From contig NZ_OY763930.1 of the NCBI RefSeq assembly GCF_963667685.1, positions 555,001 through 619,000 of the forward strand: DNA of 64,000 nucleotides, in the 5' to 3' direction. Positions 19,131 through 63,703 of the stretch are shown here, in pieces. Within the stretch, counting starts at the first letter, position 1. The number at the start of each line of letters is the position of its first letter. This stretch comes from Maridesulfovibrio sp. GTDB lineage: Bacteria; Desulfobacterota; Desulfovibrionia; Desulfovibrionales; Desulfovibrionaceae. Under the pieces are notes generated by a model. The model searched no databases and was not told the origin of the DNA. It was given only the letters and a program-made list of their open reading frames with translations. A program made the translations under genes and the position numbers.

Positions 19131-19832
19131 ATGGAACAACAATATCCCGTACTCATAGTTGACGACGACGCAAAACTCAGGGAACTGCTTACCCAGTACC
19201 TTGCAGGATACGGCTATGAAGTATTCACCCTGCCTTCCGGTGAAGGTATAGTCGAAGAAGTAAAAAAAACAGCACCCGGAATCGTCATCCTTGATATTAT
19301 GATGCCCGGTAAAGACGGACTGGAAGTACTTCGCGCCCTGCGCCCGCATTCCAACGTCCCGGTAATTATGCTTACCGCCAAAGGGGAAGATACCGACCGC
19401 ATTGTCGGCCTTGAACTGGGAGCTGACGATTACGTTTCCAAGCCTTTCAATCCGCGTGAACTTCTTGCCCGCATCAAGGCGGTTCTCCGCCGGGTGCAGG
19501 AACCTGGACGCCCTTTAGGAAACAACTCCGGACAGATAGAGACGGCCGGAATAGTTCTGCATCTGGCCCATCAGAAGCTGGAAATCGAAGGGCAGTCCAT
19601 AGATCTCTCCTCCACTGAATTCAAACTGCTTAAATCACTAATGGAAAACTCAGGGCAACCAATGACCCGCGATGCCCTGATGACTTCTGTCTGGGGTAAG
19701 GATTTCAATGCCTTCGACCGCAGCATAGATGTCCACATCAGTAAACTGCGCGCCCTGCTAAAACCGTATCCAGACCATGAATCACGCATCAAAACAGTAT
19801 GGGGAACCGGTTACATGTTCGTAGGTGAGTAA
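19131..19832 (+). CDS. OmpR-family response regulator, CpxR-like
   Basis: 233-residue DNA-binding regulator. The receiver domain has the acidic pocket VDDDAKLRELL, the phosphoacceptor Asp in VILDIMMPGKDG (about residue 55), a Thr in VIMLTAKGE and the Lys in DYVSKPFNPREL. A winged-helix output domain follows from about residue 135 (LSSTEFKLLKSLMEN, RSIDVHISKLRALL, KTVWGTGYMF). Its stop overlaps the kinase start (TAATG). Nearby GTAAA-N5-GTAAA repeats and the divergent efflux operon point to a CpxR-like role; orthology is an inference. Confidence 0.92.
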   Translation: MEQQYPVLIVDDDAKLRELLTQYLAGYGYEVFTLPSGEGIVEEVKKTAPGIVILDIMMPGKDGLEVLRALRPHSNVPVIMLTAKGEDTDRIVGLELGADDYVSKPFNPRELLARIKAVLRRVQEPGRPLGNNSGQIETAGIVLHLAHQKLEIEGQSIDLSSTEFKLLKSLMENSGQPMTRDALMTSVWGKDFNAFDRSIDVHISKLRALLKPYPDHESRIKTVWGTGYMFVGE

Positions 19833-50279: not shown

Positions 50280-50354
50280 TGGGACATCGTTCAATTGGCA
50301 GGACGACGGGTTCTGGTTCCGTTAATCAAGGTTCGAGTCCTTGTGTCCCAGCCA
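50280..50354 (+). tRNA. tRNA-Gln (anticodon CUG), copy 1
   Basis: 75 nt including an encoded CCA. Acceptor TGGGACA/TGTCCCA with discriminator G. The anticodon stem is ACGGG/TCCGT with loop TTCTGGT, giving CTG, which reads CAG. The T-loop GTTCGAGTC is standard. Confidence 0.95.
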
Positions 50355-50376
50355 ACAACAAAATTTTATGAGATGC

Positions 50377-50454
50377 GTCCCCATCGTCTAGCCTGGCCCA
50401 GGACACCTGCCTTTCACGCAGGCGACAGGGGTTCAAATCCCCTTGGGGACGCCA
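50377..50454 (+). tRNA. tRNA-Glu (anticodon UUC), copy 1
   Basis: 78 nt including CCA. Acceptor GTCCCCA/TGGGGAC with discriminator G. The anticodon stem is CCTGC/GCAGG with loop CTTTCAC, giving TTC, which reads GAA and GAG. Identical to the other four copies. Confidence 0.96.
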
Positions 50455-50549
50455 CTCAATAAAATAGACTTGAACTGCCAGAACAAGTCTTACAAAAATC
50501 CGGCTTCACGCTAATCGGCCATAGTGAAGCAGGTAAATATTCAAGATGC

Positions 50550-50627
50550 GTCCCCATCGTCTAGCCTGGCCCAGGACACCTGCCTTTCACGCAGGCGACA
50601 GGGGTTCAAATCCCCTTGGGGACGCCA
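50550..50627 (+). tRNA. tRNA-Glu (anticodon UUC), copy 2
   Basis: Same 78-nt sequence as copy 1, 95 nt downstream of it. The spacer is related to those in the second array. Confidence 0.96.
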
Positions 50628-50636
50628 CGAAATTTC

Positions 50637-50665
50637 AAAGCCCGATTCGCAAGAATCGGGCTTTT
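50637..50665. terminator. Terminator of the first tRNA array, convergent with dsdA
   Basis: AAAGCCCGATTC/GAATCGGGCTTTT hairpin, directly after tRNA-Glu copy 2 and 37 nt beyond the dsdA stop on the other strand. Confidence 0.88.
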
Positions 50666-50701
50666 CGTATTTTAAAGCAAAACAGCAGACAGCGGTATCC
50701 C

Positions 50702-52063
50702 CTATCCACAAAGCTGCTTACCCTTCTTATAGTAGGCAGCCATTTCATCATCAGGAACCATGCTCCCGCCTGTACACCATGCGAGATGGGTAGCCTGTTC
50801 CATTTTCCCGATCAGGTTATGCCGGGCAAGATAATCCTGATCAGCCAAGACTCTGATGATACCGGGAACTCCGGCAAGTGCTGACGGTTCCAAAGCCATT
50901 TGTTCGGTATCCGCTATCATGGCGAGAAACAGATACAGATTCTCGTCACTGACTGTAATTACCCCATCCAGAAGTTCATGCAGAGTTCGCCCGACAAATC
51001 CGGAAGGTCGCCCGACAGCCAAGCCATCAGCTGCGGTCAGGTTATCTATTCCGAAATCCTGCACACTCACCTCATCATGCAATCCGGTGTATAGTCCTAG
51101 CAGCATGGATGGAGAATGGGTTGGTTCGGCAAAAATACAATGCACATTGTCTCCGAAAACCAACTTCAAACCAAAAGCAACCCCGCCGGGCCCACCGCCT
51201 ACACCACAAGGGAGATACGCAAACAAGGGATGCCCCTCATCTACCACAACCCCCATTTCATCGAACTGCTTTTTCAAGCGTCCGGCGGCAACAGCATAAC
51301 CCATGAAAAGATTGATCGAGTTTTCATCATCAATGAAATAGCAGCTCGGATCAGCAGCAGCTTCGCGGCGCCCTTTGGCTACAGCCAGACTATAATCAGA
51401 TTCATATTCCAGAACGTTAACACCTTTTGAGCGCAACATATCCTTTTTCCATTGCCGTGCATCAGCAGACATATGTACACTGACTTTAAAACCAAGCTGC
51501 GCCCCCATAATTCCTATTGAAAGACCCAAGTTACCCGTCGATCCAACTGCAATGGAATGCTTCCCATAGAAAGATCGGAACTTTTCTAAATCAATTATCG
51601 AGTAATCATCAGCTGTAGTCAGCATCCCGGTTTTCAGGGCCAACAACTCGGCGTGTTTCAGAACTTCATAGATTCCCCCACGAGCCTTAATGGAACCGGA
51701 AATAGGAAGGAGATTATCACACTTGGCAACCAACCTGCCCCTGAGAGTCAAACTGTACTTTTCTTCCAGTGCCGCTTTCATGGCAGGAATTTCCCTGACA
51801 GGAGACTCTATAAGACCTCCAGCATCAGCTGTTTCAGGAAAGACCTTGGCAATGTACGGCCTGAATCTTTCCAATCTATCCACGGCATCCATGACACCAG
51901 CTTCGCCAAAAGGTATTTCAGCTGCCGCATCAGCAACTTTTTTAATTTCGGTATTAAACCAGCTGACCTCTTCACACCAGACCAGCTGCTGTATAATCGA
52001 ATGAAGTTCAATCCACTCATCCACGCTCTTTCCGCCATATTTTTTAGCAGTCACTGTAATCAC
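50702..52063 (-). CDS. dsdA: D-serine ammonia-lyase
   Basis: 453-residue PLP enzyme that deaminates D-serine to pyruvate. Motifs: the PLP lysine in [18 protein letters not shown] (about residue 123), [31 protein letters not shown] for phosphate binding (about 285), and the C-terminal [20 protein letters not shown]. The length fits the family. It is transcribed opposite to the tRNA genes and sits alone between the two tRNA arrays, without a dsdX transporter or dsdC regulator, which suggests insertion or a rearrangement between repeated tRNAs. Confidence 0.94.
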
Positions 52064-52163
52064 CTCAAGATAAATTGCGTCATTAACTAAGGAATATAAT
52101 ATGTAAACAATTAATAACAGTCACTCCACTCTTCTCTTTTTTTAAAAAAAATTTATTTTCTTG

Positions 52164-52192
52164 TTGACAGCAACCTCAAATATACATAAAAG
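52164..52192 (+). promoter_or_regulatory. Promoter of the second Gln/Glu tRNA array
   Basis: TTGACA (52164-52169), a 17-bp spacer, then TAAAAG (52187-52192), 13 nt before tRNA-Gln copy 2. Confidence 0.75.
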
Positions 52193-52205
52193 GTTTTCTC
52201 GCTGC

Positions 52206-52280
52206 TGGGACATCGTTCAATTGGCAGGACGACGGGTTCTGGTTCCGTTAATCAAGGTTCGAGTCCTTGTGTCCCAGCCA
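52206..52280 (+). tRNA. tRNA-Gln (anticodon CUG), copy 2
   Basis: Same 75-nt sequence as copy 1, including CCA. A long stem, ACCCGCTTC/GAAGCGGGT (52294-52329), lies in the spacer before tRNA-Glu copy 3 and may be a processing or partial termination signal. Confidence 0.95.
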
Positions 52281-52344
52281 GCAAAAATTTTTAACCCGCT
52301 TCATAAAGTATCAGGCTGCTGAAGCGGGTCTTTTATACAGATGC

Positions 52345-52422
52345 GTCCCCATCGTCTAGCCTGGCCCAGGACACCTGCCTTTCACGCAGGCGACAGGGGT
52401 TCAAATCCCCTTGGGGACGCCA
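52345..52422 (+). tRNA. tRNA-Glu (anticodon UUC), copy 3
   Basis: Identical 78-nt tRNA-Glu. It begins a tandem repeat of about 172 bp (tRNA plus spacer) that recurs at 52517 and 52688. Confidence 0.96.
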
Positions 52423-52687
52423 TCAGCAAAAACGACTTGCCAGTCAAGTCTACATATAGAAACCGGCTTCGTAAAAAGTGATTCAGGCCACTGAAGCAGG
52501 TACATATTTAAGATGCGTCCCCATCGTCTAGCCTGGCCCAGGACACCTGCCTTTCACGCAGGCGACAGGGGTTCAAATCCCCTTGGGGACGCCATCAGCA
52601 AAAACGACTTGCCAGTCAAGTCTACATATAGAAACCGGCTTCGTAAAAGTGATTCAGGCCACTGAAGCAGGTACATATTTAAGATGC
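52423..52687 (+). repeat. Near-identical spacers of the tandem tRNA-Glu repeat
   Basis: The 94-nt spacer after copy 3 and the 93-nt spacer after copy 4 differ only in an A run (GTAAAAAGTG versus GTAAAAGTG). Together with the tRNAs they form a 172/171-bp tandem duplication, apparently recent. The copy 1-2 spacer at 50455-50549 is a diverged relative (shared GAAGCAGGTA...ATTCAAGATGC-like end). Confidence 0.9.
52517..52594 (+). tRNA. tRNA-Glu (anticodon UUC), copy 4
   Basis: Identical 78-nt tRNA-Glu. The spacer that follows is the same as the one before it, apart from one A in a short A run. Confidence 0.96.
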
Positions 52688-52765
52688 GTCCCCATCGTCT
52701 AGCCTGGCCCAGGACACCTGCCTTTCACGCAGGCGACAGGGGTTCAAATCCCCTTGGGGACGCCA
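52688..52765 (+). tRNA. tRNA-Glu (anticodon UUC), copy 5
   Basis: Identical 78-nt tRNA-Glu, the last of the array, followed 11 nt later by a terminator. Confidence 0.96.
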
Positions 52766-53345: not shown

Positions 53346-54233
53346 ATGCGCATGCGTCAATTACGCTATTTTATCGCTGTTGCTGAAGAGCTTCACTTTG
53401 GAAAGGCGGCAGAACGGTTGCATATCCAGCAACCGCCGCTCAGCAGACAGATTCAAAACCTGGAAGAAGAGCTGGAAGTCCTGCTGTTCAAACGCAACAA
53501 CCGTAAAGTCGAACTTACAGAAGAAGGCAAATACTTCTTGCAGGAAGCAAAAGAAATGCTGAGCATCATGGACCGCTCCAGAACAACTCTCCAGGCCATG
53601 GGGAATGGGCAGGCGGGCAAGCTCAAGGTCAGCTTTATTTATCTGGCCCTGTCTTCGACTTTCCCGCAGGTCGTGGGCGATTTCATAAAAAATTTCCCTG
53701 AAGTTGATGTCAGCCTCTACGATGAAAATACATACGACCAGATTAATGCGGTCCAGGAAGGAACCCGGCACGTGGGCTTCGTGACCATGAACCTTGTGGA
53801 CACCAAGGGCCTTAAGTGCATGATGGTTCATAAGACAAGTACCTGTGCTGCTATTCCTGCCAGCCACCCCCTTGCGAAAAAAAACGTGCTGACTCTGGAG
53901 GATCTCTCGGAACTGCCCTACATATGCAGCACGGATTCATACTGCCGCATGCGGGTAAAAGAGATGCAGAAAATTTTCAACGAAAGAGACCTTGAGCTTA
54001 AAATAGGTATGCAATACGAACGCAAACACACCGGGAACGTATTTGTCGCTGCGGGACTTGGCTGGACGGTAATCAACAGTGATTCAGCAGGAACCATCCC
54101 CGACGGAATAACCCTCAAACCCCTTGAGATAGAGTTGCATCCCTTTGAGATAGGTCTGATCTGGAATCCGGAAAGAATAACCCCGCTGGTGCGAAATTTT
54201 ATTGAGTTTTACAAGCAGCGCATTGAGGAATAA
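53346..54233 (+). CDS. LysR-family transcriptional regulator
   Basis: 295-residue regulator. The N-terminal winged helix (residues about 1-60) starts MRMRQLRYFIAVAEELHFGKAAERLHIQQPPLSRQIQ (shortened form of the LysR signature), and a CatM/BenM-like substrate-binding domain follows (about 90-295; QAGKLKVSFIYLALSSTFPQ). The family binds small aromatic or organic acids. The divergent partner is the small exported protein at 52834; the target is not known. Confidence 0.9.
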   Translation: MRMRQLRYFIAVAEELHFGKAAERLHIQQPPLSRQIQNLEEELEVLLFKRNNRKVELTEEGKYFLQEAKEMLSIMDRSRTTLQAMGNGQAGKLKVSFIYLALSSTFPQVVGDFIKNFPEVDVSLYDENTYDQINAVQEGTRHVGFVTMNLVDTKGLKCMMVHKTSTCAAIPASHPLAKKNVLTLEDLSELPYICSTDSYCRMRVKEMQKIFNERDLELKIGMQYERKHTGNVFVAAGLGWTVINSDSAGTIPDGITLKPLEIELHPFEIGLIWNPERITPLVRNFIEFYKQRIEE

Positions 54234-54324
54234 TCTAATCAGGTTGTTTGTGATTGAATCAAAAACAACAGCCATTAACTGATTTACCTAAATAATTTCA
54301 TATATTTTAAGAAGGACTCCACAC

Positions 54325-54852
54325 ATGCCCATCCCAACCCCGGAACAATGCGAGGGACTCCTCGCTTCCCACAACACCCCGGAAACAACTGTAATCCACT
54401 CCAGAATAGTCCGCGACGTTGCCCGGCGCATTGGGCGCGATTTAAAATGGCTGCGCGACAGAGGGCCCAATCTGGCCCTGATATCAGCAGGAGCCTTATT
54501 GCATGATATTGCCAAAGGTCAGGAAGACCATGCTGCAGCGGGAGCAACTATTCTACGGGAAGAAGGTTATGCCGAAGTAGCTGACATCGTTGCCGCCCAT
54601 AACGACCTTGAATATTCCGGAGAACTTCCAGTTACCGAGAAAGAAATCGTCTTTATTGCCGACAAACTGGTCAAAGGTGACCAGATGGTCACAGTCATTT
54701 ATATGTATGACCATAAAATAGACGCATGCGGGAATGATACCCAAAAGATAAATAATTTGAAAAGACGCAAAGAAACGGCATTGCGCATTAAGACATCCAT
54801 TGAACATGAAACCGGTAAAAACCTTGAAGAGCTGGCAATTGCTGAAGATTAA
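54325..54852 (+). CDS. HD-domain phosphohydrolase
   Basis: 175-residue cytoplasmic protein with an HD domain. Metal ligands: His in VIHSRIVRDVA (about 24), HD in GALLHDIAKGQEDH (about 60-61), a further His in the same helix, His in AAHNDLEY (about 93), and Asp in FIADKLVKGD (about 112). This is the layout of small HDIG hydrolases acting on nucleotides or similar phosphates. It ends 281 bp before the GAK cluster and shows no clear link to it. Confidence 0.85.
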   Translation: MPIPTPEQCEGLLASHNTPETTVIHSRIVRDVARRIGRDLKWLRDRGPNLALISAGALLHDIAKGQEDHAAAGATILREEGYAEVADIVAAHNDLEYSGELPVTEKEIVFIADKLVKGDQMVTVIYMYDHKIDACGNDTQKINNLKRRKETALRIKTSIEHETGKNLEELAIAED

Positions 54853-55041
54853 TTTTGCCACATATAATTTATAGCTGAACATCTCGTAATATAAATATAT
54901 TCTGTAAAGATCAGCGGATTCACACTGCCCCGGTCCCACCGGGCAGGTGTACAATCTAAAATATCTAAATATATTTAAATGGTTCTGCGAATGAAACAGT
55001 CCCCTTGAGCAGTTGCCAAATTGTAACAAAACCGCAACAAT

Positions 55042-55093
55042 TATGATATGTTGATCGTATAAATCCTATAAGGATAAACTGGCAGGCTGCCAG
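55042..55093 (+). promoter_or_regulatory. Promoter region and paired inverted repeats upstream of the GAK cluster
   Basis: A TATGAT -10 (55042-55047) with a weak TTGTAA upstream is followed by two inverted repeats: ATCCT-ata-AGGAT (55063-55075) and CTGGCAG-g-CTGCCAG (55079-55093). Both lie in the presumed leader, 41-71 nt before the first ATG. They may be operators. A further hairpin, CTGCCC/GGGCAG, sits at 54925-54946. The rest of 54853-55041 shows nothing. Confidence 0.45.
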
Positions 55094-55133
55094 CCTTGCA
55101 GCAATTAACATCAGAGAAATACGGAGAGTTGTT

Positions 55134-55691
55134 ATGGCAAAAAAAACTAAAATTGAAAAATATATACAGCCCGGCGAACTCCCGGCCTTCCTGCGTAAAA
55201 TGGCTGACGCCCTTGAGGGCGGAGCACCCGAAGACGATGCATATCTGGTAATGATTGAAGGTTTCAAGAAGCTTAAGATCAATATTCGAAATGAGTTCGG
55301 ACACACAGCCGTTAAAGTCACAGCCAAACCAATGCCTGAAGAACATGACGAGATCCCTGACGACAAAACAGAGAACTCCGCAGCAGAAGAGACTACAACG
55401 GATAAACCAAAATATAAGACCATTAAAAAAAGGATGAAAGCATCCTTCAAAGTCATCTTCAAATCCGTACATGCCGGCACCATTCCCCCTTCCGGTGTGG
55501 TGGAAGAATTCATGGCCGATTCACAGCTCATGGTCAGCTACGAAGGGTATGGTGATGAATATTATGATGAATACATGGAAGCATGTGAAAAATTCCAGCA
55601 GGCCTGCACCGACTCAGATGTCGAGGCAGCCCACAAAGCCTGTGACGAGATAAACAGCATTACCGCCCACTGCCATTCAAGGTATAAATGA
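55134..55691 (+). CDS. GAK system XXXCH-domain protein
   Basis: 185-residue cytoplasmic protein with no signal peptide. The N-terminal part (about residues 1-75) resembles an amphi-Trp-like unit (EKYIQPGELPAFLRKMADALEGG). A charged linker follows (PDDKTENSAAEETTTDKP), then a helical C-terminal domain (about 95-185) ending SITAHCHSRYK, the x-x-x-C-H motif that names the family. The ending looks like a cytochrome c' haem site that has lost its first Cys (also ACEKFQQAC and HKACDE). It is the first gene of the cluster, with CGGAGAG before the ATG. The function is unknown. Confidence 0.78.
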   Translation: MAKKTKIEKYIQPGELPAFLRKMADALEGGAPEDDAYLVMIEGFKKLKINIRNEFGHTAVKVTAKPMPEEHDEIPDDKTENSAAEETTTDKPKYKTIKKRMKASFKVIFKSVHAGTIPPSGVVEEFMADSQLMVSYEGYGDEYYDEYMEACEKFQQACTDSDVEAAHKACDEINSITAHCHSRYK

Positions 55692-55700
55692 GAGGATAAA

Positions 55701-56843
55701 ATGACCGCAGAAGCATCCTGCCCCGCAGCAGTAAAAGTTTCCCCTGAAATTACTGACGAGGACCGCCAACGATTCCACGAAGTGATATCCACAGAGCTCG
55801 CCGACTGGCAGATTAAGCAGGTAATCACCCCGTCCAAAATATATCCCCGGCAGGAAAATCTGCTGGCGGCGCACTGGCATCCTGAATTTGTTCCGCTAAA
55901 GTATATTTCACAACGTGTTGAGAACATGTTTCCCAACGTGCACGACAAACTCATGATCCCCACCCAGCATAACGTGCTTATGAGCTACGGGGACTACACC
56001 GGGGTTGAAGTTGACTGCTATGCCAGCGGGTTCAACCAGAAAGTGCAACTTCTGCTCCACTTTGAAAATGAAAAAGTGCAGGAAGCCCACGTGCTGAAAT
56101 CCATGCTGGCCCACACTTTTAAATACCGTTCATCTCAGCTTTTCCAATACATGGACACAATAACCAAACCGATTAAAGACCGCATTGGAAAAGCGGCCAA
56201 ATCCACCGGCGCGGATGAGGATCTTGTGGATATGGTCCGGGTATACGTGACCAAGGTGCAAACAATGCTTGATGAAGAATGGTCCAGTGTCCCCCGTGAT
56301 TCAATCAAAAACAAACTGCTGCGCAACTACTTTGATGCCATGCGTCCGAAATATGGCGACAACCTGATAAACCGTATCCAGGCCTACCTCAAGGAAGTCA
56401 AGAAACTTGTCAAAGCAGATTTCTCCTTGAAATTCTTTTACCGGGCAACAGAAGTAATCGAAGAAGCTCGTTCGCTTGGCGGATGCGTTGTCATTCCCCA
56501 CCCTGAAGAATTCTGGCCCATTCTTCTTGCAAAATACGATGTTGACGGCATTGAGGTCTGGAACCCGCAATCTCAGCGTTACACCGAATTTCTGATCTCC
56601 GTGGTTAATGAGCAGAACGCATCACGTCCTGCCGGAAAAAAAGAACTGCTTATCTTCATGGGCGATGACTGCCATATGAGTGAGAAAACCAAGCCCCTGG
56701 AGACTCAGGACCCGATCAAGGCAGCCCGCGAAATCGGCCTGCAACCAGCATGGGACAACCTGAATATCAGGAAAAAGCTGATTATAGCAGGAATTGACCG
56801 CGCTTCGGTGATAGAAGAATATAAAATCCGTATGGCCGGTTAA
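55701..56843 (+). CDS. PHP-like metal-dependent phosphoesterase of the GAK cluster
   Basis: 380-residue cytoplasmic protein. PHP-type metal ligands appear in order: LLAAHWHPEFVPL (His-x-His, about 53-55), a long helical insertion (about 130-235), CVVIPHPEEFWP (about 264), DVDGIEVWNPQSQ (about 283) and LIFMGDDCHMSEKTKP (about 316, an Asp-x-His pair). PHP enzymes hydrolyse phosphoesters with several metal ions. It begins 9 nt after the XXXCH gene. The helical insertion makes it unlike common PHP proteins, so the substrate is open. I assign PHP by motif pattern only. Confidence 0.68.
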   Translation: MTAEASCPAAVKVSPEITDEDRQRFHEVISTELADWQIKQVITPSKIYPRQENLLAAHWHPEFVPLKYISQRVENMFPNVHDKLMIPTQHNVLMSYGDYTGVEVDCYASGFNQKVQLLLHFENEKVQEAHVLKSMLAHTFKYRSSQLFQYMDTITKPIKDRIGKAAKSTGADEDLVDMVRVYVTKVQTMLDEEWSSVPRDSIKNKLLRNYFDAMRPKYGDNLINRIQAYLKEVKKLVKADFSLKFFYRATEVIEEARSLGGCVVIPHPEEFWPILLAKYDVDGIEVWNPQSQRYTEFLISVVNEQNASRPAGKKELLIFMGDDCHMSEKTKPLETQDPIKAAREIGLQPAWDNLNIRKKLIIAGIDRASVIEEYKIRMAG

Positions 56844-56937
56844 CTATAGATAATCTTCGTCATCTAATCTTTACAGAACTGCAATCATTCTCGTTACGCG
56901 CAGTGTTAATAAGCAGCGAAACATCCTATGGAGAAAC

Positions 56938-57213
56938 ATGATGGCTGGCGAAAAAAAATTTGTATTTGAATCACTGCAGGATGCGGAAACCATCCGAACT
57001 TTCCTGCAATCCCTTGTCGACGGATTTGAGTCCGGAAATATAAAACTTTCCACCAACGGCGATAATATTGAACTGCACCCGGAAGGTCTGCTTAATTTTA
57101 CAGTAAAAGCTAAAAGAAAAGCCGGTAGCAATAAAATCAACATTAAAATCGGTTGGAAAGATTTTGACATAGAGGCAGAAACTTCTGACAAAACCCTAAA
57201 CATCGATATCTAA
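56938..57213 (+). CDS. Amphi-Trp domain protein (GAK cluster), copy 1
   Basis: 91-residue protein, essentially one amphi-Trp domain: FESLQDAETIRTFLQSLVDGFESGNIKL (helix, shortened), then alternating strands NGDNIELHPEG, LNFTVKAKRK and INIKIGWKDF with the conserved Trp. The family is small, occurs next to ATP-grasp and HprK-like kinases, and has no known activity. TATGGAG precedes the tandem ATGs at 56938/56941. It is followed 3 nt later by the PhoU-kinase fusion, suggesting tight coupling. It may be a carrier, substrate or adaptor; this is inference. Confidence 0.82.
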   Translation: MMAGEKKFVFESLQDAETIRTFLQSLVDGFESGNIKLSTNGDNIELHPEGLLNFTVKAKRKAGSNKINIKIGWKDFDIEAETSDKTLNIDI

Positions 57214-57216
57214 ATT

Positions 57217-58875
57217 ATGCTCACATTTGAAGGGTTGGACGAAAACTTTAAATTCCTCATTATTGAGGTTTTAAATCAGCTTAAGTCTACGCGGGAATTT
57301 GTAAATACACCATCCCGCTCACTGTTCCGCAAAATAACATCACGTGATGACTACATCGATAACCTCAAAACTGTTATCGAAAACAAATCATACTCGCGAA
57401 TTAACAGTTCCATTGACCTCGACACAAAGTTGCTGAATAAAATAAGGGCCATACAGGTTTCATCCGTAAATCTGGAACGAATCGGCGATCATTGCGTCAA
57501 CATTGTCAACCAGATGGCTTATCTGGAAGACAAGGGACTGGTTAACCGCTACGAAAGCGCTGAAGCATTCGATATAATTGAAGGAACGGTTGCTAAAATC
57601 GCCGACGGCTTCAATTCTGAGGATATGCCTCTGGCTCTTGAAATATGCAAATCAGAATACCGTCTGGATTCACTCTACAAGGATAACTTCAACCGCATTA
57701 TGGCTGAAATGGGTAGCGGGAAAAACATCCCTGACCTTGTTACCTGCCTGTTCATCTTCCGATATCTGGAACGGATCGGCGATTCCCTGCTGAATATCGG
57801 GGAAGCAATCATTTTTTCCATTCTGGGGGAGCGAATCAAAATTGAACAGTTCGAATCCTTGCAGCAGACTTTAAGCGTTTCCGGTTATGACGGGTCTTTT
57901 TCTGATATTGATTTTCAGGGAATATGGGGCTCACGCTCCGGTTGTAGAATCGGACGGGTACAGGCCAAGGGGGAGGACAGTACAAACAATCCCCCGGTGG
58001 CACAGGGAAGTATCTATAAAGAAGGTAATCTCGACAAAATCAGACTGGAAAAAACCAGCCTTGAACAATGGGCTAAACGTTTTCCGGGAATGGTTCCTGA
58101 AATTTTCGGTTTCCACGAATCCAAAGAAGAAAACAAAGGGTCCATGCTTGTCGAATTCCTGCCGGGCTGTACACTTGATACAATGATTCTGACTTCGGAC
58201 GACAATGATCTGGAAAACGCCCTGTTCACCCTTGAACAGACTCTGCGCCATGTCTGGACCACGACTAAGAAAGAGCAATCAATCCAAACAACCTTCATGG
58301 CCCAGCTCAAGGCCCGTCAGAATGGCGTTTTGCAAGTTCACCCGGAGTTCCACCGCAGCGCATGCGTGATGGGTTCCGCAGAAATCATCTCCTCCGAAGA
58401 CCTGCTCAACGAATGCGCAGCCATTGAAGAATCCCTTCCGGCTCCATTCACAGTATTCATTCACGGCGACTTTAATTGCAACAATGTTGTTTACAGCAAC
58501 GACGATGAACGGGTCAGGTTCATTGACCTGCACCGCTCCCGCGACTTTGATTACATTCAGGACCTGTCAGTCTTTCTTGTTTCCGGATTCCGTATGCCGG
58601 TTTTCGAACGCCCTATCAGAAACAAGATCAATGCTGTAATCTCACGCATGTACAATTTTGCTGAAGAATTCGCTAATGAGAACAATGACCATACATGGCA
58701 GGCCAGGTTGGCTCTTGCCTTGGCGCGCTCCTTCTATACTTCCACGCGATTCGAATTCAACTACGCTTTTGCCAAGGAAATGTTCAACCGCTCCATGTTC
58801 CTGCTGGAAAAAATAAACCGCTACAGCGGGAAGTGGAACAAGTTCATTCTGCCTGAAGACATTCTTCACTACTAA
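57217..58875 (+). CDS. PhoU domain fused to an aminoglycoside-phosphotransferase-like kinase domain
   Basis: 552-residue cytoplasmic protein. Residues about 1-215 form two PhoU helical repeats with metal-binding signatures NLERIGDHCVNI (about 88) and YLERIGDSLLNIGEAI (about 187). A linker leads to an APH/choline-kinase-like domain (about 235-552): LVEFLPGCTLDTMI as hinge, catalytic loop FIHGDFNCNNVVY (HGDxxxxN, about 422) and the metal site RFIDLHRSRDFDYIQDLS. PhoU alone controls phosphate uptake; fused to a kinase-like domain it may sense phosphate or a metal cluster and phosphorylate a small molecule or protein. The fusion is unusual. Confidence 0.8.
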   Translation: MLTFEGLDENFKFLIIEVLNQLKSTREFVNTPSRSLFRKITSRDDYIDNLKTVIENKSYSRINSSIDLDTKLLNKIRAIQVSSVNLERIGDHCVNIVNQMAYLEDKGLVNRYESAEAFDIIEGTVAKIADGFNSEDMPLALEICKSEYRLDSLYKDNFNRIMAEMGSGKNIPDLVTCLFIFRYLERIGDSLLNIGEAIIFSILGERIKIEQFESLQQTLSVSGYDGSFSDIDFQGIWGSRSGCRIGRVQAKGEDSTNNPPVAQGSIYKEGNLDKIRLEKTSLEQWAKRFPGMVPEIFGFHESKEENKGSMLVEFLPGCTLDTMILTSDDNDLENALFTLEQTLRHVWTTTKKEQSIQTTFMAQLKARQNGVLQVHPEFHRSACVMGSAEIISSEDLLNECAAIEESLPAPFTVFIHGDFNCNNVVYSNDDERVRFIDLHRSRDFDYIQDLSVFLVSGFRMPVFERPIRNKINAVISRMYNFAEEFANENNDHTWQARLALALARSFYTSTRFEFNYAFAKEMFNRSMFLLEKINRYSGKWNKFILPEDILHY

Positions 58876-58899
58876 ATAAGCTAATAACAGGTGCCAACT

Positions 58900-59775
58900 A
58901 TGAAGATAGGTGTAATAGGACTTAAAGGAGCGTGGTCTTCAGAGCAGCTTGCTAAAGCTGTAGCTGAGAAGACCGGCCGCGAAACTACAATTTTTGAAAT
59001 GCAGGATGTACGCCTCGACCTTCCTTCCGGCCTGGCAATGGTGGAAGGAGAAGACCTTTCCACTTACGATGCACTGATCATCAAAAAAATTGGAAAGCAG
59101 TACTCCCCTGATCTGCTGGACCGTCTCGAAATGTTGCGTCTGCTTGAAGGACGCGGGGTGAAGATTTTCTCCTCCCCATACTCCATCCTGCGTGTTCTGG
59201 ACCGCCTGACCTGCACAATCTCGCTACAGCTGGGCGACATCCCCATGCCTCCGACCACCATCACCGAAGACGTGGATCACGCCCTTGCCGCAGTAGAAGA
59301 ATACGGAGAAGCTGTTTTTAAACCGCTCTACAGCACCAAAGCCAGAGGCATGTTCGTTCTTAAACCCGGACCTGACGCACGTAGGATCATTGAGGATTAT
59401 CACAAAGAGTACAATACCATGTACATCCAGAAAACCATTGACCTCAATGACAGCGACCTAGGTATAGCTTTCCTAGGCGGTGAATATCTGACCACTTATG
59501 CCCGCTGTAAAACCACCGACTCATGGAACACCACAACCGTTAATGGCGGCAAATACGCTCCTATGGACCCACCTCAGGAAATCATAGATCTCGCCCGGAA
59601 GGCGCAGGCCATCTTCAATCTTGATTTCACCTGTGTCGATGTTGCCATTACCCCTGATGGACCATTTATTTTCGAGGTCTCAGCCTTCGGCGGCTTCCGC
59701 GGTCTGCTTGACGCTCGCGGAATCGATGCAGCAGCACATTATGTAGACTATGTGATAAAAAAGGTGGAAGGATAA
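58900..59775 (+). CDS. GAK system ATP-grasp enzyme (RimK-like)
   Basis: 291-residue ligase-type protein. Start chosen at MKIGVIGLKG (58900), preceded by CAGG; a GTG 9 nt upstream is an alternative. A Rossmann-like N-terminal region (GVIGLKGAWSSEQLAKAV) is followed by ATP-grasp elements: AVFKPLYSTKARGMFVLKPG (about 143), YIQKTIDL, LDFTCVDVAITPDGPFIFEVSAFGGFRGL (about 245-272, shortened). The usual metal-binding E-x-N of RimK-like enzymes is EVS here. ATP-grasp enzymes join a carboxylate to an amine or thiol through an acyl phosphate. Its TAATG overlap with the kinase gene couples them. Confidence 0.85.
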   Translation: MKIGVIGLKGAWSSEQLAKAVAEKTGRETTIFEMQDVRLDLPSGLAMVEGEDLSTYDALIIKKIGKQYSPDLLDRLEMLRLLEGRGVKIFSSPYSILRVLDRLTCTISLQLGDIPMPPTTITEDVDHALAAVEEYGEAVFKPLYSTKARGMFVLKPGPDARRIIEDYHKEYNTMYIQKTIDLNDSDLGIAFLGGEYLTTYARCKTTDSWNTTTVNGGKYAPMDPPQEIIDLARKAQAIFNLDFTCVDVAITPDGPFIFEVSAFGGFRGLLDARGIDAAAHYVDYVIKKVEG

Positions 59776-60863
59776 TGAACAAAAGCACAATCACCAAATC
59801 CGCAATTGTAGAAAAATACCGCACTGAATTCCCGGCCAAAGAAGCAATTTTCATCGACTTCGGTGGCTGCGTAATTGAAACCCGGGTCAACAGCTCCGAA
59901 TTACTGGCTGACCTGACCAACTACTTCAAAGAATTTCTGATAGACGCCGAAAATGGCGATATCATGGTCACCGCCCACGAATGTCCAAAGACCGATCTCG
60001 GCCTTGAATACACAGTTAAGCAACCCGATCCGGGCAAAACCAAAATCAAAGAAGAATTCTACAACCTTTCTGACGGACGTGTTGTCTACAAGCGACTGAC
60101 AGGAATGGTCTTTGTCTTCGGAAACGGCGATAACATCGCCATCGGTCCCTGCATTGAAAACTCCAATCAGGTCATAAACTTCATCAACAACCGTTTCATT
60201 GAGTACAAGCTTAACAAAGGTTCCTTCCTGGGTCATGCTGCTGGTGTAATCGAGAACGGACGCGGAATCGCCATGGCCGGTTTCTCGGGAATGGGTAAAT
60301 CCACCCTCGCTCTGCACCTTATGAGCCGCGGCACTACCTTCGTCAGCAATGACCGTGTCATGGCAGAAGACAACGGCGATTCCCTTACTATGTACGGTGT
60401 AGCCAAACAGCCGCGCATCAATCCCGGAACAGCACTGAACAACCCGGACCTATCATGCATCGTTTCTCCCGAAGACAAGGAAAAGTTTATGTCCATGCCG
60501 AAGGAAGAACTATGGGAGCTTGAGCACAAATACGATGCTCTCATCGACGAGTGCTACGGAAAGGGTAAATTCATTCTCAAAGCTCCCCTCAGCGGACTGG
60601 TTATCCTCAACTGGCAGCGCGATAATTCCGAGACTATTGTCAAAGTTGTCGACCCCAAGGAGCGCAAGGACCTTCTTCCCGCCTTCATGAAAGGAACCGG
60701 GCTCTTCTACCTCCCTGATTCCCCTGAAAAAGAAAATGATCCCGAGGTTGACGCCTATGCGGATCTTCTGTCAAAGACCACGCTCATTGAAATCAGCGGC
60801 GGTGTGGATTTCGATAAAGCAGCAGATGTCTGCCTGAAATTCATGAAAGAAGGTAAGATTTAA
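59775..60863 (+). CDS. HprK-related kinase B (GAK system)
   Basis: 362-residue protein related to HPr kinase/phosphorylase. The Walker A is MAGFSGMGKSTLAL (about residues 166-179). The following FVSNDRVM (about 193) holds the Asp that is part of an Asp-Asp pair in HprK (ND here). The region KAPLSGLVILNWQRD continues the kinase fold. The N-terminal 150 residues are family-specific. No HPr or PTS gene is nearby, so the substrate is probably a partner of this cluster, for example an amphi-Trp or XXXCH protein; that is inference. Its ATG overlaps the ATP-grasp stop. Confidence 0.86.
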   Translation: MNKSTITKSAIVEKYRTEFPAKEAIFIDFGGCVIETRVNSSELLADLTNYFKEFLIDAENGDIMVTAHECPKTDLGLEYTVKQPDPGKTKIKEEFYNLSDGRVVYKRLTGMVFVFGNGDNIAIGPCIENSNQVINFINNRFIEYKLNKGSFLGHAAGVIENGRGIAMAGFSGMGKSTLALHLMSRGTTFVSNDRVMAEDNGDSLTMYGVAKQPRINPGTALNNPDLSCIVSPEDKEKFMSMPKEELWELEHKYDALIDECYGKGKFILKAPLSGLVILNWQRDNSETIVKVVDPKERKDLLPAFMKGTGLFYLPDSPEKENDPEVDAYADLLSKTTLIEISGGVDFDKAADVCLKFMKEGKI

Positions 60864-61016
60864 TTAATTTAAGCCTCCGGCAGCCCTGCCGGGGGCCGTA
60901 CCCCCTTTTGTTATGGCTTCGCTGTCAGTTATCCGAAAGACGGCTTAATACGAAGCATATCTAAAAAGTCTTTTGAAAAAAGGGATGGGGTCTGATAAAG
61001 GAAGACACAAAATAAT
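60864..61016 (+). repeat. Intergenic repeat-like element inside the GAK cluster
   Basis: 153 nt between the kinase and CofD-like genes. A GC-rich core, GCCTCCGGCAGCCCTGCCGG then GGGCC (60873-60897), resembles the element between trpF and trpB. AAAAAGTCTTTTGAAAAAAGG follows. It has no ORF. It may affect downstream expression. Confidence 0.4.
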
Positions 61017-62204
61017 ATGCGCATTAAGATTGAACGTGAAGTCATGGTTCCGGACCCGATCAAACTGGAGCGTTGCCGGAGAACTCCGGACCTCGGCCCG
61101 AGGATTCTTTTTTTCAGTGGCGGCACCGCACTCAAGAAGACTTCTTCCGTGCTTGCCCAGTTCACGCACAATAGCATCCACGTGATCACTCCGTTTGATT
61201 CCGGTGGAAGTTCCGCCGTAATACGCAACCAGTTTAACATGCTGGCTGTGGGCGACATCCGCAACAGGCTCATGGCCCTCGCGGACCAATCGGTGCTTGG
61301 AAACCCGGAAATTTACAGACTGTTCGCTTATCGTCTGCCAAAGGACGCCGGTGAAGAAGAGCTGCGGGCTGAATTTGAAGAAATGATGTGTTGCAGGCAT
61401 CCGCTGGTCCGCAACATTCCCGCCCCGATGCGCAAAATCATTCGCAACCACTTTATCCAATTCGCTGACTTCATGGGCGACTTCAATCTGCGCGGAGCAA
61501 GCATAGGAAATCTAATCCTCACCGCCGGGTATCTTACCAACCGCCGCCACATTGATCCGGTAATATATATATTCTCAAAGCTGGTTGAGGTTCGCGGCAT
61601 TGTGCGCCCGACTGTCAATAAAGACGTCCACCTCGCAGCTGAGCTGGAGGACGGAAGCTTTGTTGTCGGCCAGCATCTGCTGACCGGAAAAGAAGCCTCT
61701 CCCCTCAGCTCCGGTATAAAAAAGCTCTGGCTGGCAGAACATCTTGACGACTCCACGCCCTGCACTGTGCAGATCAGAAATAAAATGAAAGTACTGATCA
61801 ACAGCGCGGAACTTATCTGCTATCCTCTGGGGAGCTTTTACTCCAGCGTGGTGGCCAACCTGTTGCCTGTAGGAATAGGCAAAGCCATCAGCGATACCCG
61901 GTGCCCGAAGATTTTTACTCCAAACACTGGAACGGACCCTGAACTGAAAGGACATTCTCTTACGGACCAGATTCACAAACTTCTGTACTATTTACGTAAG
62001 GACGATCCCGAGAACATCACTGTCAGCGACGTGCTTAACTTCGTCCTAGTTGACTCAGTGAATGGAATATACCCCGGCGGTGTCGATAAAAAAGAGATCA
62101 ATAAACTCGGTATTCAGGTGATTGATTGCGAGCTTGTCAGTGAAGAAAGCACTCCCTATCTGGACCCGCTCCTTCTTTCACAGGCCCTGCTCTCACTGAC
62201 CTGA
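61017..62204 (+). CDS. GAK system CofD/YvcK-like protein
   Basis: 395-residue protein of the CofD/YvcK fold, which binds nucleotide-type phosphates and in CofD transfers a phosphoester. Motifs in order: ILFFSGGTALKKTSS (Gly-rich loop, about 30), ITPFDSGGSSAVIRNQF (about 59), VGDIRNRLMA (about 80), RGASIGNLILTAGY (about 160) and ICYPLGSFYSSVVANLLP (about 265). No F420 pathway genes are nearby, so it is probably not a true CofD. Start at MRIKIEREV; GGAAG lies upstream. Transferase or regulatory roles are both possible. Confidence 0.85.
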   Translation: MRIKIEREVMVPDPIKLERCRRTPDLGPRILFFSGGTALKKTSSVLAQFTHNSIHVITPFDSGGSSAVIRNQFNMLAVGDIRNRLMALADQSVLGNPEIYRLFAYRLPKDAGEEELRAEFEEMMCCRHPLVRNIPAPMRKIIRNHFIQFADFMGDFNLRGASIGNLILTAGYLTNRRHIDPVIYIFSKLVEVRGIVRPTVNKDVHLAAELEDGSFVVGQHLLTGKEASPLSSGIKKLWLAEHLDDSTPCTVQIRNKMKVLINSAELICYPLGSFYSSVVANLLPVGIGKAISDTRCPKIFTPNTGTDPELKGHSLTDQIHKLLYYLRKDDPENITVSDVLNFVLVDSVNGIYPGGVDKKEINKLGIQVIDCELVSEESTPYLDPLLLSQALLSLT

Positions 62205-62230
62205 GGACCGCATAATAAGGCAGGTACACA

Positions 62231-62578
62231 ATGAGTAAAGACGGAAAAGCTAAAGTAAGCTTGAAAAAAAAAGTCGGCCATGAAGAGGCAGTTACCATTC
62301 TGGAAGATCTCCTGAAAGGATTTAAAACAGGAAATATGATCTTGCAGAACGGGGAAGAATCCATAACACTTAGTACATCTGATAAAATCAGCTTGGAAAT
62401 CAAAGCCAAAACTAAAAAACTGAAAAACAAGCTCAGCATAGAGCTTTCATGGAAAACGGATTCTCTCGAAACCGATGATTTCAGCATTACTGAAGCTGTG
62501 GATGAAGCTGAAACGGAACAGGATGCTTCCACAGCAGATATTTCCAATAAAGCCAAAGTCATCAAAAAAGCAGAATAA
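62231..62578 (+). CDS. Amphi-Trp domain protein (GAK cluster), copy 2
   Basis: 115-residue protein. Residues about 14-82 form an amphi-Trp domain (GHEEAVTILEDLLKGFKTGN, then NGEESITLSTSDKISLEIKAKTK, shortened, and NKLSIELSWKTD with the conserved Trp). A Lys-rich N-terminus and an acidic, low-complexity tail (DEAETEQDASTADISNKA) flank it. It is a second copy of the domain seen at 56938, with the same strand pattern. It is the last gene of the cluster, 26 nt after the CofD-like gene. Confidence 0.8.
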   Translation: MSKDGKAKVSLKKKVGHEEAVTILEDLLKGFKTGNMILQNGEESITLSTSDKISLEIKAKTKKLKNKLSIELSWKTDSLETDDFSITEAVDEAETEQDASTADISNKAKVIKKAE

Positions 62579-62600
62579 TACTCCCTTTTACTCGCTATAG

Positions 62601-62638
62601 AACTCCTCTCCGAACGTGCGGTGAGGAGTTTTCATTTT
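62601..62638 (+). terminator. Terminator of the GAK cluster
   Basis: AACTCCTC (62601-62608) pairs with GAGGAGTT (62623-62630), followed by TTCATTTT. It lies 23 nt after the stop of the last cluster gene, which supports a single transcript. Confidence 0.78.
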
Positions 62639-62727
62639 AAAGACGTATCGCATTTCTACTAGCCAAAACATGCGCAATACTTATTCTTATGTGTAATTCA
62701 ATTCACATTCAGAAAACAGGAAACAAA

Positions 62728-63591
62728 ATGTTACCAGTTATAATTGATCCCGAACTCTGCAAAGCGGACGAGCTTTGTGTGCATGTATGCCCCCTTTCAG
62801 TTTTAACTATAGAAAAAAAAGGTCTGGCACCGGCCGTTCACCCCAAAAAGATCAAATACTGTATAAACTGCGGACACTGCATGTCAGTCTGCCCCACCGG
62901 GGCCATAACCTTAAGTGCGTTTGAAGGCGAACTGGCCATTCCTTTCACTAAAGAAGAACTTCCCGATTACAATGAAGTGGAAATGCTGATCAAAACCCGT
63001 CGCTCTGCCCGCAAATTCACGAAAAAACAGATCAGCACCGCTGACGTGGGTGAACTGATCCACACCGCAGCTTATGCACCTTCAGGGCACAATGCTCAGA
63101 CCGTTTCATGGACTGTTCTGGATAGCCCGGAAAAAGTTCATGAACTAGGAGAAGTCGTAGTTGAATGGATGGAGGAAATGGTCAAGCAGAAAAATCCGCT
63201 GGCGAAAAAACTATTTCTGTCCGGACTGGTCAATGCTTGGAAAAAGGGTAACGATGTCATCTGCCGCAACGCACCTGCGGCTATAATCGCATGGGCCCCA
63301 GAGCAGGGAATTACCCCGCAGGCCGACACTGTTATCGCCACCAACACGCTTGAACTGGCCGCCCACGCCAAAGGATACGGAACATGCTGGGCCGGGTACG
63401 TAGTATTGGCCGCTGCATATAGTCAAAATGTACTGGATTATCTGGCCATTCCCGGCGGCCACATGGCCTACGGAGCATTGTTCATCGGGCACCCGGCAAC
63501 AAAGTATCGCAACATCCCGGCCCGGCACAAAGCTAATCCGGAAGAGATTAACGGTAAATGGGTCTTTCGAGCCCGTCCCAATGCACATTAA
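62728..63591 (+). CDS. Ferredoxin-nitroreductase fusion protein
   Basis: 287-residue flavin and Fe-S protein. Start chosen as MLPVIIDPELC at 62728, behind AGGAAA. An N-terminal 2x[4Fe-4S] ferredoxin domain (residues about 1-65) has a variant first cluster (CKADELCVHVCP) and a standard second one (CINCGHCMSVCP). The nitroreductase domain (about 80-287) shows RRSARKFTKKQIS for FMN binding, AYAPSGHNAQTVSW and a later ATNTLELAAHAKGYGTCWAGY. This fusion is common in anaerobes; the substrate is unknown. Electrons probably come from reduced ferredoxin rather than NADPH. Confidence 0.9.
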   Translation: MLPVIIDPELCKADELCVHVCPLSVLTIEKKGLAPAVHPKKIKYCINCGHCMSVCPTGAITLSAFEGELAIPFTKEELPDYNEVEMLIKTRRSARKFTKKQISTADVGELIHTAAYAPSGHNAQTVSWTVLDSPEKVHELGEVVVEWMEEMVKQKNPLAKKLFLSGLVNAWKKGNDVICRNAPAAIIAWAPEQGITPQADTVIATNTLELAAHAKGYGTCWAGYVVLAAAYSQNVLDYLAIPGGHMAYGALFIGHPATKYRNIPARHKANPEEINGKWVFRARPNAH

Positions 63592-63667
63592 GAATCTCAT
63601 TTGATAAAAAACCATAACTATGGGCACTTAACGCAGCTATTTGCCTCATGGTTTTGCTAAAATAAAT

Positions 63668-63703
63668 AAAGCCTGCAATATCGCGCACGATATTGCAGGC
63701 TTT
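63668..63703. terminator. Bidirectional terminator after the nitroreductase gene
   Basis: AAAGCCTGCAATATCG (63668-63683) pairs with CGATATTGCAGGCTTT (63688-63703), a 16-bp stem with a better T tract on the minus strand, so it may mainly serve the partial gene at the right edge. Confidence 0.88.

Follow-up and report, generated by a model that had tools for sequence, protein, structure and literature searches.

An eight-gene GAK cluster and its distribution

The window examined here is a 64,000-nucleotide stretch of the genome of the sulfate-reducing bacterium Maridesulfovibrio sp. (assembly GCF_963667685.1, contig NZ_OY763930.1, positions 555,001 to 619,000 of the forward strand), and it contains a complete cluster of the GAK system, a group of protein families that NCBIfam catalogues by name without function. 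Eight genes on the same strand had been proposed at 55134..62578 from the letters alone, and their order, strand and coordinates were confirmed by translation and profile searches (Table 1). That sequence-only reading named these families as ones catalogued together, and all five NCBIfam GAK families (TIGR04354 to TIGR04358) do lie in this one cluster above their curated cut-offs, in the same order as in relatives. The two remaining proteins, a PHP-like protein and a fusion of a PhoU domain with an APH-type kinase (hereafter PhoU-kinase), fall outside the five models and are constant partners here. Numerous other genomes show the same gene order, and the cluster is therefore not a product of chance.

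Table 1. Features of the GAK operon, in window coordinates
Feature	Coordinates	Strand	Basis or remark
PhoB-type tandem box, GTAACA-N5-GCAACAA	55023..55040	+	94 nucleotides upstream of the XXXCH start
XXXCH protein	55134..55691	+	TIGR04358, 118 bits (cut-off 40)
PHP-like protein, resembling the RNase AM/BAD_1165-like metallo-phosphoesterase family	55701..56843	+	Fold-model match
Amphi-Trp-1	56938..57213	+	TIGR04354, 69 bits (cut-off 31); bears SLQD (Ser12)
PhoU-kinase	57217..58875	+	Pfam PhoU and APH
RimK/LysX/MptN-like ATP-grasp ligase	58891..59775	+	TIGR04356, 474 bits (cut-off 300)
HprK-related kinase B (HprK-B)	59775..60863	+	TIGR04355, 586 bits (cut-off 200)
GC-rich hairpins in the HprK-B/CofD gap	60873..60905	+	Possible attenuator
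GAK 'CofD-like' protein, YvcK/UPF0052-like	61017..62204	+	TIGR04357, 569 bits (cut-off 340)
Amphi-Trp-2	62231..62578	+	TIGR04354, 61 bits (cut-off 31)
Operon terminator hairpin	62599..62632	+	-19 kcal/mol, z -3.5

Neighbouring genes are separated by anything from a 1-base overlap to 94 nucleotides, with the exception of 153 nucleotides between the HprK-B and CofD-like genes. A single terminator shared by all eight genes had been suggested, and a hairpin does follow the last gene, but the HprK-B/CofD gap holds a strong second hairpin of 24 nucleotides (60873-60896) that is unique within the window, although the z-score of the whole gap is only -1.9. Because of this hairpin the CofD-like and amphi-Trp-2 genes may be partly uncoupled from the rest of the operon. 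A search of 54000-63700 against Rfam returned no RNA family. The ATP-grasp reading frame begins with GTG, and an ATG at 58900 is a possible alternative start.

Co-occurrence of the families was assessed in 297 genomes from the phylum. HprK-B, ATP-grasp and XXXCH each exceed their cut-offs in 20 genomes, CofD-like in 24 and amphi-Trp in 55, while strong PHP matches (at least 368 bits) are found in 21, a count that leaves out a weak match in G250, which would bring it to 22. HprK-B is found together with ATP-grasp in 19 genomes, with PHP in 16, with CofD-like in 15 and with XXXCH in 13, and amphi-Trp is present in all 20 HprK-B genomes, though not always at the same locus. The GAK families thus co-occur far beyond chance, and the strict co-occurrence that had been put forward as a check is found as a strong rather than a strict association. 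HprK-B occurs without PHP in G042, G078, G193 and G295, the first three of which are less than 90% complete; PHP occurs without HprK-B over cut-off in G118, G218, G219, G241 and G262; and XXXCH and amphi-Trp also occur apart from other GAK members.

An earlier contig scan with a single CofD protein as query gave no match, and a scan of named genomes with a PHP alignment found 238 loci. Eighty of these were kept, most of them in Desulfobacterota and others, by record titles, in Zixiibacteriota, Phycisphaerae or Phycisphaerales, and Eisenbacteria. Two loci (L062, L104) lying on the same contigs as others (L012, L013) were excluded before counting; since these loci were selected by PHP, they cannot show how often the other members occur without it. 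Among the 72 PHP loci with enough flanking sequence, PHP is accompanied most regularly by PhoU-kinase (68) and amphi-Trp (67), then by ATP-grasp (63), HprK-B (60) and XXXCH (55), and least regularly by CofD-like (48). All seven families are found at 38 of the 72 loci and all but CofD-like at another 10, in which L108 and L117, apparently from one contig, are both counted. Some losses are in fact splits, for example in G277 and G213, which keep ATP-grasp, one HprK-B and CofD at a second locus. Six CofD-less loci (L083, L088, L092, L094, L099, L100) have a chorismate-synthase-like gene directly downstream and, except for L094, a shikimate-kinase-like gene upstream of GAK, both names having been assigned by eye.

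A PhoB-type box shared with the pst genes

Upstream of the operon lies a tandem box of the type bound by PhoB, the regulator of the phosphate-starvation response. The motif was derived from the GAK and pstS promoters after a scan with a generic matrix, and its core pattern, GTAACANNNNNGYAAC (GTAACA-N5-GYAAC), has seven matches in the 4.42-Mb genome against three for a backwards-read control; a longer pattern matches once in the window, where 0.01 matches are expected. In addition to the GAK site, a box is found about 80-95 nucleotides upstream of pstS (pstSCA) and another about 150 nucleotides upstream of pstB-phoU, all three in the same orientation, and the pst and phoU genes concerned exceed their NCBIfam cut-offs. 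As the motif was read off GAK and pstS, the pstB-phoU site is the sole independent confirmation; by our own arithmetic, one of the five other sites would fall within 200 nucleotides upstream of pstB-phoU, correctly oriented, with a probability of about 1e-4. The fourth site lies 318 nucleotides upstream of, and in opposite orientation to, an alkaline-phosphatase-like gene, whose family match has an E value of 8e-36 yet reaches 124 of the 540 bits that the model requires. Two more precede cyclic-di-GMP genes, one about 100 nucleotides upstream of an EAL-domain gene and one about 410 nucleotides upstream of a GGDEF gene (L139 and L140, on C2 and C3 of this genome, G000), and the seventh is at the end of a gene directly ahead of hmcF.

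A point of comparison is provided by Desulfovibrio vulgaris, for which passages of Rajeev et al. 2011 (PMC3333781) describe a gel-shift-checked PhoB box, in which (c/t)GT(n)AC is directly repeated after a spacer of 4 bp. The box precedes 14 of the 30 PhoB (DVU1083) targets identified by DNA affinity purification on chip (DAP-chip), and the targets include pst, phoU and HD/EAL phosphodiesterase genes. The boxes ahead of the EAL and GGDEF genes accord with those published HD/EAL targets. Read on the reverse strand, the Maridesulfovibrio sites are TGTTGC-N5-TGTTAC (GAK), GGTTAC-N5-TGTTAC (pstS) and CGTTAC-N5-TGTTAC (pstB), of which the GAK and pstS sites each differ from the D. vulgaris box at a single base. 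The two systems are alike in the direct-repeat type of box and in having pst and phoU as co-targets; they differ in that no GAK genes are named in those passages and in the spacer, which is 5 nucleotides here, giving an 11-nucleotide period equal to that of the E. coli box (7+4) as given in the same passages.

The association extends to other genomes. With the generic matrix, 87 GAK upstream regions score above 315 control upstream regions (Mann-Whitney p 6e-6), and 18 pst/pho upstream regions, used as a positive control, give p 6e-5; upstream regions shorter than 300 nucleotides were left out. The published D. vulgaris repeat had been read beforehand and was then scanned at spacings of 3 to 7. 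Exact copies at spacing 5 are present in 10 of 87 GAK upstream regions, as against 4 of the 281 controls (p 1.5e-4), whereas at spacings 3, 4, 6 and 7 the counts are 0, 2, 0 and 0 for GAK and 1, 0, 1 and 0 for the controls. Allowing one mismatch, 24 of the 87, this window included, carry the box as against 19 of 281 controls (p 1.1e-6). The dependence on spacing argues against an effect of base composition. The control set is smaller here because 34 of the 315 were removed for overlapping a GAK promoter stretch, after high-scoring controls were seen to share that stretch; with them retained, 8 of 315 controls have the repeat at spacing 5.

Gene neighbourhoods also point to phosphate. At 12 of 91 GAK loci at least one Pst gene (by our own score limits) lies within 10 kb, where fewer than one would be expected by chance, on our own arithmetic, which takes a 4-Mb genome to have roughly a single pst operon and ignores relatedness; the 91 omit loci without PHP or ATP-grasp and thus also L014, a CofD-only locus beside Pst genes. 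At five loci (L023, L041, L042, L052, L054) pstS, C, A, B and phoU are all present within this distance, and L042, L052 and L054 are collinear, with pst, phoU and then GAK. Clustering of the neighbours and family searches identified PstS, PstB, PhoU, a PhoH-like protein, arsenate reductase, MgtE and a PHP-glycosyltransferase protein, some of which fall below their models' cut-offs; a PstC-like reading frame of L042, one of ten neighbour queries, matched no family at E<=1e-10. In a set of 27 genomes not chosen for this purpose, two (G089 and G161) encode PstB at a distance of 1-2 kb from a gene of a GAK family, and in G161 CofD is the only GAK family over cut-off. A gene joining a PHP domain to a glycosyltransferase was seen within 10 kb, again by our own score limits, at 8 of the 91 loci (L041, L058, L063, L065, L072, L097, L107, L018), and may, as a guess, encode a lipid-remodelling enzyme.

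Several observations weigh against assigning the operon to PhoB control. The box in the window departs from the published consensus at one base, has a spacer of 5 rather than 4, and reaches only p 0.08 against 60 shuffles with the generic PHO matrix, whose weights we set ourselves from the E. coli consensus. The published motif itself precedes only the 14 of 30 targets mentioned above. The putative PhoB of this genome, its best match to the PhoB model, scores 259.5 bits against a cut-off of 296, a value reached by only 2 of 11 matching control genomes. Elsewhere, 63 of the 87 GAK upstream regions lack even a 9-of-10 box, the first-gene starts in relatives are our own choice of reading frame, the GAK loci are related to one another so that the p-values are too small, and no Pst gene lies within 10 kb at 79 of the 91 loci, though many contigs end sooner. 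Even so, the sequence-only reading had guessed a phosphate link from the PhoU domain, and that link is supported by the box held in common with the genome's own pst genes, the spacing-specific enrichment and the Pst neighbours; we predict, with considerable confidence, that the GAK operon is a member of the PhoB (phosphate-starvation) regulon. The window also encodes an OmpR/PhoB-type response regulator (19146-19820, plus strand), which at 213 bits is the genome's second best match to the PhoB model, below cut-off.

Enzymes and small proteins of the cluster

Conserved motifs were found for the P-loop of HprK-B and for the APH, PhoU and PHP domains. For the PHP-like protein, NCBIfam gives no match at E<=0.001 and no Pfam model exceeds its cut-off; its fold model (predicted local distance difference test, pLDDT, 85.8) matches PHP phosphoesterases and is closest to BAD_1165 and RNase AM. 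Identity to these two is 14-18%, and the protein has a 50-residue N-terminal extension of its own. It resembles a member of this metallo-phosphoesterase family and may have metal-dependent phosphatase or nuclease activity, the motifs having been identified by eye. In the PhoU-kinase, the Pfam PhoU (84.5 bits) and APH (39.9 bits) domains are both over cut-off, PhoU chains are matched at E 2e-17, and both PhoU ExxxD motifs (E87/D91, E185/D189) as well as the HGDxNxxN...D motif are invariant in 11 of 11 sequences; the score against the full-length PhoU model (94 bits) is below its cut-off of 130. The solved structures closest to the ATP-grasp protein are 3vpd (an S6 modification protein) and 1uc8 (a lysine biosynthesis enzyme), and it scores 139 bits against MptN and 100 against the RimK-family model, both below their cut-offs.

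HprK-B finds its closest solved relative in HPr kinase/phosphorylase 1jb1 (E 8e-6), with which it shares the P-loop kinase core, the His and the second Asp. The alignable core spans about 50 residues, HprK-B has a long N-terminal part of its own, and the Asp-Asp pair that follows the P-loop in HPr kinase is replaced by Asn-Asp (SNDR for ADDR), with N192 and D193 unchanged across all 14 sequences compared. Since Asn stands in place of the HPr-kinase Asp throughout, kinase activity of HprK-B is not assured.

The GAK protein named CofD-like has five matches among solved chains at E<=0.01 (best 1.6e-36), two titled UPF0052 and three titled hypothetical or uncharacterized, which we take to be YvcK-type; none is titled CofD, the 2-phospho-L-lactate transferase. 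With YvcK/UPF0052 proteins (2ppv, 2hzb, 2o2z) it shares a two-part profile match (E 1e-36) and the GGxxL and GDxRN motifs, and it differs in having DSGGSS for D[DN]GGS[ST], an extra N-terminal segment and an insert. It reaches 121 bits against the YvcK model TIGR01826 (cut-off 196) and 129 bits, over cut-off, against Pfam PF01933 'CofD', which is a broader family. Judged by these matches the GAK 'CofD' is YvcK-like, so the misfit of the textbook CofD role noted earlier is less of a puzzle, and F420-like chemistry by a true CofD is not favoured. CofD was also rejected as a marker of GAK, as a second gene of this kind (L011:7004-8149; G000:C1:624037-625134), about 5 kb beyond the end of the window, adjoining the deoxyribonuclease IV gene nfo and not part of a GAK cluster, scores 401 bits against TIGR04357, whose cut-off is 340. 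In genus g3, seven genomes likewise have CofD over cut-off with no HprK-B, ATP-grasp, PHP or amphi-Trp match. The GAK label of TIGR04357 is therefore not specific.

The XXXCH protein combines an amphi-Trp-like N-terminal domain, recognized by alignment and through relatives and giving no TIGR04354 match in this window, with a four-helix domain ending in CH that is related in fold and sequence to cytochrome c'. The terminal CH aligns on the heme-binding CH of cytochrome c' and is kept in 64 of 67 XXXCH matches above 45 bits. Unlike cytochrome c', XXXCH lacks the first heme cysteine (CxxCH in 0 of the 67), is fused to the amphi-Trp-like domain and shows by eye no signal peptide or other export signal. 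Of eight loci inspected for XXXCH outside GAK, four (L141, L144, L146, L147) carried the XXXCH label, and no explanatory neighbour was seen.

Among solved structures the amphi-Trp proteins match best dIG14 (3.9e-5) and scIg12 (0.0075), presumably both designed proteins, and cullin segments at E of at least 0.15. The motif SxQD occurs just ahead of a helix in 78 of 85 amphi-Trp-1 proteins, defined as the amphi-Trp encoded between PHP and PhoU-kinase, the helix position being placed by eye from the XXXCH model. It is found in none of 34 amphi-Trp-2 proteins and none of 11 XXXCH N-termini, and four of the seven amphi-Trp-1 exceptions, read in their printed sequences, keep the Ser. HPr kinase acts on a serine at the start of a helix, to which this arrangement bears a loose resemblance, and Ser12 of amphi-Trp-1 is a candidate site for the reversible phosphorylation or conjugation that the sequence-only reading suggested for the amphi-Trp and XXXCH proteins.

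Possible roles in phosphate starvation

On balance we think it somewhat more likely than not that this conserved operon, with a PhoB-type box in common with pstSCA and pstB-phoU and Pst genes beside some of its relatives, is switched on by PhoB at low phosphate and encodes a cytoplasmic modification circuit. Two kinases opposed by a phosphoesterase would act on the small amphi-Trp proteins, and a ligase would add a second modification. HprK-B would phosphorylate a serine of amphi-Trp-1, for which Ser12 is the best candidate, and the PhoU-kinase would contact the Pst/PhoR/PhoU machinery, sense phosphate status in this way and phosphorylate a second substrate. The RimK-like ligase would add amino acids to a tail or a small molecule, and the PHP enzyme would remove phosphate, or cut short RNA and nucleotides to free it. 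The YvcK-like protein, as the most dispensable part, would link the circuit with nucleotide-sugar or envelope metabolism. That a serine of amphi-Trp-1 acts as a phosphate-responsive switch is predicted only tentatively. More speculative, and in our view unlikely, is GAK as a second, intracellular arm of the phosphate-starvation response, in which amphi-Trp-1 would be an HPr-like phosphoprotein phosphorylated by HprK-B near the helix start, the PhoU-kinase would take up phosphate status from the Pst/PhoR complex and relay it to metabolism, and a heme- or metal-binding cytochrome-c'-like amphi-Trp partner would add redox or nitric oxide (NO) input.

Other accounts of the operon deserve consideration. 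It could make a small molecule or cofactor for phosphate shortage, with the kinases yielding a phosphorylated precursor, the YvcK/CofD-fold protein a transfer, the ATP-grasp protein glutamate-like residues and the PHP protein a trimming step, while amphi-Trp and XXXCH would be carriers. The ATP-grasp scores to MptN and RimK suit such a pathway, as does the loss of members by degrees around a core of PHP and PhoU-kinase, which would be expected if late steps were optional; against this, the supposed transferase is YvcK-like, the 10 loci (two probably from one contig) holding every family but CofD would lack it, and G040 has no CofD match at all, making this account a somewhat improbable one. 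Salvage of phosphate from RNA or nucleotides, with the PHP enzyme doing the work and the rest regulating it, draws on the similarity of the fold model to RNase AM, described as a 5'-3' exoribonuclease in passages of PMC9410882. It would leave the ATP-grasp ligase and two kinases unexplained, a fold match does not fix a substrate, and we regard it as quite unlikely.

It is more doubtful still that HprK-B is the organism's HPr kinase, linking phosphate status to carbon control through an HPr encoded elsewhere. The statement that no HPr or phosphotransferase system (PTS) gene is nearby holds for the cluster, but the genome, the only one searched for HPr, does encode a free HPr that bears the motifs HARP and DAKSIL and an HPr-type Ser site, and the TIGR04355 profile revealed no second HprK-like gene in it (6 of 15 candidates scored). 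HprK-B nonetheless scores only 31.4 bits against the HPr kinase/phosphorylase model TIGR00679 (cut-off 240) and has SNDR for ADDR, and every one of the 20 HprK-B genomes also holds amphi-Trp. Anti-phage defence was rejected, as none of the eight proteins has a match at E<=0.01 in PADLOC, which covers systems described by 2023. In an unrelated part of the window (50280-52765), seven transfer RNA (tRNA) genes for Gln-CTG and Glu-TTC form two similar blocks flanking a minus-strand reading frame (50702-52063), which looks like a duplicated tRNA cluster.

No paper on the GAK families or system was found among open-licence PubMed Central papers. For D. alaskensis G20 under phosphate limitation, passages of Bosak et al. 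2016 (PMC5193443) mention Pst, PhoR, PhoU, Agt and OlsF and no gene recognisable as GAK. The abstract of that study presents phosphate limitation as thought to be important for anaerobes such as sulfate reducers, and the GAK operon, in the reading favoured here, probably helps these sulfate-reducing bacteria to withstand a shortage of phosphate. For annotation, the GAK 'CofD' would become YvcK-like and XXXCH cytochrome-c'-like, and a PHP member without a name is added to the system. For families that have so far been curated names without function, placement in the regulon tells when to look and names candidate partners, and a Pho response extended by a kinase/ligase circuit would, if true, be new biochemistry.

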